Source: Sphingomonas lacunae
GTDB taxonomy: Bacteria > Pseudomonadota > Alphaproteobacteria > Sphingomonadales > Sphingomonadaceae
DNA length: 64,000 nt
Direction of reading: 5' to 3'
Assembly (NCBI RefSeq): GCF_012979535.1
Contig: NZ_CP053015.1
Span: 2,790,001-2,854,000, forward strand
The position numbers were made by a program, and so were the translations under genes. This document shows, one piece after another, positions 60,886-61,102 of the stretch. The notes under the pieces were generated by a model that worked only from the letters and a program-made list of their open reading frames with translations, had not been told where the DNA came from and ran no database searches. How positions within the stretch are numbered: the first letter of the stretch is position 1; each line of letters begins with the position of its first letter.

Positions 60886-60919
60886 GACTTGCCCCTTAAA
60901 AACACAAGGATTCCAGCCT

Positions 60920-61072
60920 GAATCAGCGCGAGTCCGCGGTCAAGAGTCATGGTAAGCGAAGGGTTTCGCAGAAAGGTTAACTCAAAGGGGAACAGAAGGA
61001 GTCTGACCGCGACATGGTGGGGGTGGGTGAGTCAGCGGGACTCAATCCCTAGTGGTGTGGCGAAAAAGACTC
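60920..61072. promoter_or_regulatory. Cluster of seven GANTC sites upstream of ccrM
   Basis: GANTC occurs at 60920 (GAATC), 60930, 60944, 60999, 61029 (all GAGTC), 61039 and 61068 (GACTC), giving seven sites in 153 bases where about 0.6 is expected at random. All lie in the 217-bp gap between rnhB and ccrM, 35-187 bases ahead of the ccrM start. A GGTTAAC at 60975-60981 resembles a CtrA half-site. In Caulobacter, GANTC methylation in the ccrM leader affects ccrM transcription. Autoregulation by methylation is therefore likely but inferred. Confidence 0.75.
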
Positions 61073-61102
61073 GGGCATGAAAAATATTTTCGGGGTGGGC
61101 TA

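Follow-up and report, generated by a model that had tools for sequence, protein, structure and literature searches.

A family-wide GANTC cluster upstream of ccrM in Sphingomonadaceae: a predicted core promoter and a putative NrdR operator

The analyzed window, a stretch of 64,000 nucleotides from the genome of Sphingomonas lacunae, contains two adjacent genes transcribed in the same direction and separated by a 217-bp gap at 60886-61102:

59764..60885, minus strand: ccrM, encoding a GANTC adenine methyltransferase with N6_N4_Mtase and RAMA domains
61103..61777, minus strand: rnhB, encoding ribonuclease HII (PF01351, E 1.7e-41), the upstream neighbor of ccrM

The ccrM product matches the Pfam families PF01555 (E 1e-67) and PF18755 (E 2e-18) and the NCBIfam CcrM model NF050803 (E 1.7e-184), the latter with 612.6 bits, under the curated cut-off of 830. 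It is the single full-length CcrM match in the genome, which also encodes GcrA (PF07750, 130 bits) and NrdR. The real start of rnhB probably lies further inside the open reading frame as listed, in which the PF01351 match begins at residue 35. At 61678-62913 on the minus strand, the phosphomethylpyrimidine kinase ThiD and a glyoxalase/VOC domain share one reading frame.

The gap between ccrM and rnhB contains eight GANTC sites, starting at positions 60909, 60920, 60930, 60944, 60999, 61029, 61039, and 61068. The original prediction had described a cluster of seven sites with spacings of 10, 14, 55, 30, 10, and 29 bases; the clustering is confirmed and the spacings are correct for the last seven sites, while the site at 60909 had been overlooked. 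The window as a whole is poor in GANTC, with 103 sites observed against 266 +/- 16 in dinucleotide shuffles. A 724-kb sample of the 2.98-Mb S. lacunae genome, made up of the window and 33 further stretches of 20 kb each (24% of the total), contains 1.57 sites per kb, which corresponds to an expectation of 0.34 sites per 217 bp. The ccrM gap is the densest 217-bp stretch of this sample, and the runner-up holds five sites.

CcrM is present in all 119 Sphingomonadaceae genomes examined. We used 117 ccrM loci, leaving out one gene with an internal stop (G052) and one fragment (G063); a further locus without a usable -35 box (L094) reduced the set to 116. To these were added 80 named loci from genera including Sphingopyxis, Sphingomonas, Sphingobium, Novosphingobium, Erythrobacter, and Croceicoccus, as well as 40 loci from other alphaproteobacterial families, mostly the better-scoring ones of 103 non-family genomes with a match. 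The closest named relatives of S. lacunae belong to Sphingopyxis (CcrM identity of 85-88%). The GANTC cluster before ccrM is found throughout the Sphingomonadaceae, with its sites at fixed positions. Absence from close relatives, an outcome that the original prediction had raised, was not observed: eleven relatives from the same genus have 7-9 sites per 230 bp before ccrM. A comparison with other regions gave a mean of 5.94 sites per 360 bp before ccrM (range 2-12, 116 family loci), whereas 1613 control windows taken elsewhere in these loci, most of them coding, averaged 0.43.

A sequence model of the array gave one strong match in the S. lacunae genome (E 6.6e-14, the next being 0.26, with 150 of the 656 first-look candidates scored) and strong matches in 11 same-genus genomes out of 12; the remaining one is a fragmented assembly. 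All 12 strong matches stand before ccrM, and eight genomes from other families of the order gave nothing significant (best E 0.19). Assignment of the array to rnhB was rejected, because the array remains with ccrM where rnhB is hundreds of bases or more away or outside the locus. An RNA leader or hairpin was rejected as well: the boxes described below form an inverted repeat, yet, judged by eye, its arms vary independently within genomes, with no sign of covariation. A search of 60700-61300 against Rfam gave no match at E up to 1, and no terminator was found between rnhB and ccrM.

The cluster consists of two modules rather than one graded switch. The sites proximal to ccrM belong to a predicted core promoter, which in S. 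lacunae includes the following elements (offsets are given relative to the TTGAC word):

60938..60943, minus strand: predicted -35 box, TTGACC
60915..60920, minus strand: predicted -10 box, CAGGCT, after a 17-bp spacer, its first C being the last base of the second core GANTC
60930..60934, minus strand: core GANTC site F, read as GACTC, within the spacer of the promoter, offset +9
60920..60924, minus strand: core GANTC site H, read as GATTC, overlapping the -10 box, offset +19
60909..60913, minus strand: GANTC near the predicted transcription start, a position infrequent in relatives
60944..60948, minus strand: GANTC directly upstream of the -35 box, offset -5, found at the same place in 7/116 family loci

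The TTGAC word is present in 116/117 family upstream regions. It is followed by two GANTC sites at 75 of the 117 family loci and 20 of the 40 loci of other families, and the second site lies exactly 19 nt from the start of TTGAC in 72/75 and 17/20 of these, respectively. Such arrangements number 0.00 and 0.01 per set in shuffled upstream regions and at most one for any of the 23 alternative pentamers of the same type. At least one core GANTC in register occurs at 113/116 family loci (three have neither), and TTGAC with at least one such site at 30/40 loci of other families. If the spacer is taken as 17 bp, the -10 hexamer is CANNNT, and its first base is the last one of the second GANTC. Judging by these upstream sequences, the core promoter comprising TTGAC, a 17-bp spacer, CANNNT, and two GANTC sites is common to many other alphaproteobacterial families. 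The ccrM promoter is a predicted one with a poor -10 box, and a sigma-70 consensus scan of the ccrM gap found no promoter.

The extended GcrA motif YGAKTCK fits neither core site; this motif was not upheld in Brevundimonas (PMC7987155). Based on extended GANTC motifs in representatives of 13 orders, the same study predicted ccrM to be a core GcrA target, the targeting being class-wide and lost in Caulobacterales and Parvularculales. In Caulobacter, promoters with GANTC between the -10 and -35 boxes share their activation time of 40-60 min (PMC4287350). The core module fits both the published target prediction and the Caulobacter finding. One part of the original prediction, methylation control of ccrM, finds support: the cluster is conserved and lies in the control region of ccrM, and the pair next to the promoter is consistent with control through methylation. 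The target prediction and the Caulobacter activation time also speak for a rival scenario, in which methylation is the only input: many GANTC sites are read by GcrA or the polymerase, giving graded, replication-timed autoregulation, and the palindromic boxes described below are meaningless. It gains from the GANTC density, about 14 times that of other windows, and from the statement that GANTC methylation in Caulobacter most probably affects ccrM itself (PMC3973325).

Candidate binding sites of two other cell-cycle regulators occur in part of the family. The TTAAC half-site noted in the original prediction is indeed present within the cluster:

60976..60981, strand not assigned: GTTAAC, a word resembling a CtrA half-site, found in 43/116 family upstream regions versus 6/1613 control windows

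Another word resembling a CtrA half-site, TTAACCAT, was found in 38/116 family ccrM upstream regions and 2/1613 control windows. The full CtrA site is TTAA-N7-TTAA, and it occurs in 1/116 family upstream regions; the S. lacunae gap has GTTAAC only. The same full site is given in a Caulobacter study (PMC4287350). Thus, the CtrA half-site is a minority feature of the family ccrM upstream regions. A DnaA box (TTATCCACA, either strand) is present in 45/116 family ccrM upstream regions versus 0/1613 control windows. In 33 upstream regions (e.g., L034, L062, L073, L075), a perfect box TGTGGATAA stands at +28 from TTGAC, over the predicted start. DnaA may act directly on ccrM in this part of the family; the S. 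lacunae ccrM gap has no DnaA box. A LexA-like GTTC next to the distal site E was dropped as a candidate, as it was seen in isolated words only.

The second module lies further upstream and includes the remaining GANTC sites together with two palindromic boxes:

61068..61072, minus strand: distal GANTC site A, read as GAGTC, offset -129
61039..61043, minus strand: distal GANTC site B, read as GAGTC, the inner end of NrdR-type box 1
61029..61033, minus strand: distal GANTC site C, part of the linker that separates the boxes, offset -90, optional in relatives
60999..61003, minus strand: distal GANTC site E, read as GACTC, offset -60, a conserved position
61040..61055, minus strand: NrdR-type box 1, CCACTAGGGATTGAGT, found with the nrdA-trained matrix, pair score 13.5
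61007..61022, minus strand: NrdR-type box 2, CCCCACCATGTCGCGG, degenerate; site D, the inner end of this box in most relatives, is absent

In the family, the preferred positions of the distal GANTC sites relative to TTGAC are about -128 for A, -99 for B, -89 for the optional C, -80 for D, and -60 for E. Their central bases are nearly invariant: within 2-3 nt of these positions, site A is GAGTC in 73/73 cases, E is GACTC in 43/43, B is GAGTC in 61/65, and D is GACTC in 58/63. The distances are similarly constrained (A-B, 29-31 bp; B-D, 17-20 bp, with 20 bp in 39 of 53 cases; D-E, 19-21 bp). Between the sites, the conserved bases form the pattern C-N-A-N-A-T-N-T-N-G, running into B and out of D. 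This pattern resembles that of the boxes bound by NrdR, the dATP-sensing repressor of ribonucleotide reductase, and the resemblance was put to a test.

The test used a matrix derived from nrdA upstream regions only (41 loci), obtained by expectation maximization (EM) from the NrdR consensus with the centre-to-centre distance limited to 30-33 bp. The procedure converged to boxes of the form cCAC[AT]A...T[AT]GTGg. In the training set, 37/41 nrdA loci score above 10.7; of the remaining four, one comes from a genome without nrdR (G105), and three (L307, L317, L322) come from nrdR-bearing genomes and have no pair within 440 bp before nrdA. A missing pair is therefore no proof against NrdR control, and the matrix is imperfect. 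Among 20 further nrdA upstream regions, all 16 from nrdR-bearing genomes score 13.6-33.7 and all four from nrdR-less genomes score below 0; one of the latter (G105) is also in the training list, where it scored too low to count finally.

When the ccrM upstream regions were scanned with this matrix without a positional prior, the best box pair exceeded 99% of the 1613, mostly coding, control windows at 103/116 family loci and 99.9% of them at 90/116. Compared with shuffled sequences, 106 ccrM upstream regions exceed the 95% level and 98 the 99% level. Masking of the four GANTC-overlapping positions in each box left 101/116 loci above 95% and 74/116 above 99%. In the named set, the pair was found at 69 of the 73 loci whose 200 bp before the anchor differ from the first set. 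The linker between the boxes is 17 bp at 80/102 loci and in S. lacunae (14-18 bp were allowed in the search). Purified NrdRs accept linkers of 14-17 bp (PMC12051234), and the ccrM boxes are in helical register with a linker inside this range. In nrdA regions, the linker is mostly 15-16 bp (27/37), a difference that would suit palindromes used by another DNA-binding protein. We regard such a protein as very unlikely, given that the matrix derives from nrdA promoters and that none of the four nrdR-less genomes tested has a match to it at nrdA.

In S. lacunae itself, the pair score of 13.5 is above the 99% control level (10.7) and below the 99.9% level (14.1), and three other pairs in the 724-kb sample outscore it. 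Box 1 is good and box 2 is weak; the case for NrdR in this species rests on the position of the pair and on the relatives, and the operator may be decaying. Outside the family, 13 of the 40 ccrM loci have pairs exceeding 99% of shuffles, with several words resembling, by eye, the coding 3' end of rnhB. At five loci of other families (L152, L155, L157, L186, L191), the apparent rnhB coding 3' end resembles an NrdR box, CACAAGATATTG and variants, again by eye. The operator may have arisen from coding sequence, or may hide in it.

GANTC has a particular place within the ccrM boxes. In the 102 pairs, the inner box ends are GANTC in 158/204 cases (75 for box 1 and 83 for box 2), the outer ends in 0/204, and at nrdA the inner ends are GANTC in 0/74 cases (37 pairs). 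With a slightly different threshold, the inner GANTC is found in 76 and 83 of 103 pairs, and in both boxes of 64. The methylase target has taken over the half-sites facing one another and no others. The nrdA upstream regions carry GANTC as well, on average 3.3 per 440 bp at 37 loci (e.g., L304, L308, L314), none of them at inner box ends. One could suppose that the operator is real and its GANTC words are incidental variants of the half-site; indeed, the non-GANTC inner ends are partly the normal G[TC]G (16/27 for box 1 and 6/19 for box 2), so the boxes seem to manage without GANTC. The preference for inner over outer ends and for ccrM over nrdA, together with the scarcity of GANTC in the S. 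lacunae genome, makes this explanation unlikely.

The presence of the boxes can be compared with that of nrdR. A pair over the threshold is missing at 14/116 ccrM loci, and nrdR has no match in 9/119 family genomes. Four well-assembled nrdR-less genomes from two genera (G019, G105, G006, G100) have no pair at ccrM or nrdA; they retain 0, 0, 1, and 0 distal GANTC sites and keep both core sites. On the CcrM tree these genomes group into two pairs with good support. The common ancestor of the two pairs has 26 descendant tips, many of them with the operator, and the position of these two separate clades among operator-bearing tips means that the loss of the operator probably occurred twice. The loss of nrdR and of the nrdA boxes in these four genomes is a natural loss that deserves study in its own right. 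The other five nrdR-negative assemblies keep the pair at ccrM; all are fragmented (150-660 contigs), and the gene may just have been left out of the assembly. Across the 116 loci, the association between the pair and nrdR reaches only a Fisher p of 0.012. Ten nrdR-bearing family genomes lack a pair over the threshold at ccrM, five of them being near it (7.0-10.7); hence, the operator can be lost while nrdR stays. Loci with the pair have on average 3.50 distal GANTC sites versus 1.43 for loci without it, and 1.65 versus 1.93 core sites.

These observations bear on the scenario in which methylation is the only input and on the graded multi-site switch of the original prediction, which they do not support in the form given. 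A GANTC methylase has no need of the fixed central base seen at the distal sites A and E; sites B and D are the inner ends of NrdR-type boxes in most relatives; and in the two nrdR-less lineages the distal sites are nearly gone and the core pair is kept. In addition, the geometry of the distal sites is fixed, the box positions outside GANTC are conserved too, and YGAKTCK fits, by eye, just site A of the eight. We therefore consider control by methylation alone quite unlikely.

The distance between the boxes and the core promoter is quantized. The offset of box 1 from TTGAC is -98..-102 at 15 loci, -108..-113 at 71, -119..-123 at 14, and -130..-132 at two; none of the 102 loci falls between these four clusters, which are about one helical turn apart. 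In the named set, 66/69 loci fall into the same clusters, the others having offsets of -90, -68, and -141, the last one with a doubtful -35 box. Such quantization is expected if a bound protein has to face the polymerase or another partner, and the phase dependence argues for contact or looping at ccrM. In the modal class, the boxes are about 63-112 bp upstream of the predicted -35 box and do not overlap the polymerase site; no second promoter was seen by eye within the boxes. A neutral history of an old region might also produce steps of 10-11 bp, by duplication of GANTC-spaced units and with no selection for phase. The family members are related, and the spacers of some relatives contain extra GANTC pairs 9-10 bp apart, as such a history would predict. 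Nevertheless, it appears highly improbable: the spacer keeps its length although its sequence is barely conserved (no position between -48 and -2 exceeds 0.30 bits), and the off-modal classes occur in 12, 13, and 2 genera, with 23 Fitch changes on a rough CcrM tree, likely an overestimate.

Taken together, the arrangement is likely to be a two-module ccrM control region, in which a methylation-sensitive core promoter is combined with a putative NrdR operator that has GANTC inner half-sites. The first module would be a sigma-70-type core promoter (TTGAC, 17 bp, CANNNT) with GANTC in the spacer and over the -10 box, so that promoter activity can depend on the methylation state, read probably through GcrA. 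The second module, about 56-130 bp upstream of the -35 box in most loci, would be an NrdR operator of two 16-bp boxes, usually 33 bp apart centre to centre, with inner half-sites turned into GANTC (TTGAGTC...GACTCAA) and flanked by sites A and E. NrdR with dATP would bind the operator and, always placed on the same side of the helix, influence the core promoter, thereby tying ccrM expression to the ribonucleotide reductase (RNR) regulon and the dNTP status. Passage of the replication fork would change the methylation of both the inner ends of the operator and the core, and methylation of the inner half-sites beside the conserved G could tune NrdR binding. The sequence evidence suggests a coupling of DNA marking to the supply of DNA precursors. 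More tentatively, the operator may be a methylation-gated nucleotide sensor, with NrdR reading both the dNTP level and the replication state, its tetramer acting on the core, and ccrM belonging to the RNR regulon.

The sign of the proposed NrdR effect may be considered in view of known cases. In the presence of dATP and ATP, a tetramer of NrdR occupies paired boxes, and RNR genes are shut off as dATP rises; NrdR boxes often overlap the polymerase site (PMC9110341). The position of the ccrM boxes upstream of the predicted promoter is unlike that and speaks against the NrdR reading; with boxes so placed, either sign of the effect is possible. In Pseudomonas aeruginosa, NrdR activates topA (PMC4409342).

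We found no link between NrdR and CcrM in passages of the literature that name both. The 186 NrdR regulons reconstructed by Leyn et al. 2016 (PMC5343134) are described in a main text in which the words "methyltransferase" and "methylase" are absent; its supplements or RegPrecise may list ccrM. GANTC sites upstream of cell-cycle genes were studied earlier, with no conclusion on methylation control (PMC2877005). Matching the timing of methylation to replication is a central question of the alphaproteobacterial cell cycle, studied mostly in Caulobacter with its CtrA-driven ccrM. If the two-module scheme is true, a large family would have a second wiring of ccrM, which links the methylase gene to a dATP sensor; on the more tentative reading, ccrM would belong to the RNR regulon across the Sphingomonadaceae. 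The half-sites of its operator would be targets of the methylase, directly binding together precursor supply, fork passage, and epigenetic state.

Among the closest known systems is the Caulobacter ccrM promoter, which, as Stephens et al. in 1995 are said to have described, has two GANTC sites 3' of the promoter. Both control regions contain GANTC, going by that description in the case of Caulobacter. The differences are that the GANTC sites here are located in and upstream of the promoter and that the Caulobacter gene is activated by CtrA (PMC3667746), whereas no full CtrA site is present here. The methylation-dependent GcrA/CcrM promoters, such as Caulobacter mipZ and ctrA P1, similarly have GANTC in the core promoter of a cell-cycle gene, and ccrM is itself a predicted core GcrA target (PMC7987155); in contrast, ccrM here has two sites in fixed register plus a distal operator, and YGAKTCK is mostly unmatched. 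P. aeruginosa topA is a precedent for NrdR control of a gene other than the nrd genes, in that case by activation; topA has a single box, and the passages describing it mention no methylation sites (PMC4409342). Unlike in the NrdR operators of RNR genes, the controlled gene here encodes a methyltransferase, the inner half-sites are GANTC, and the boxes are upstream of the predicted promoter. Common to both are palindromes of 16 bp that have a C-N8-G core, stand in pairs at a distance of about three helical turns, and match the family nrdA matrix, as well as the absence of these boxes from four genomes without nrdR.
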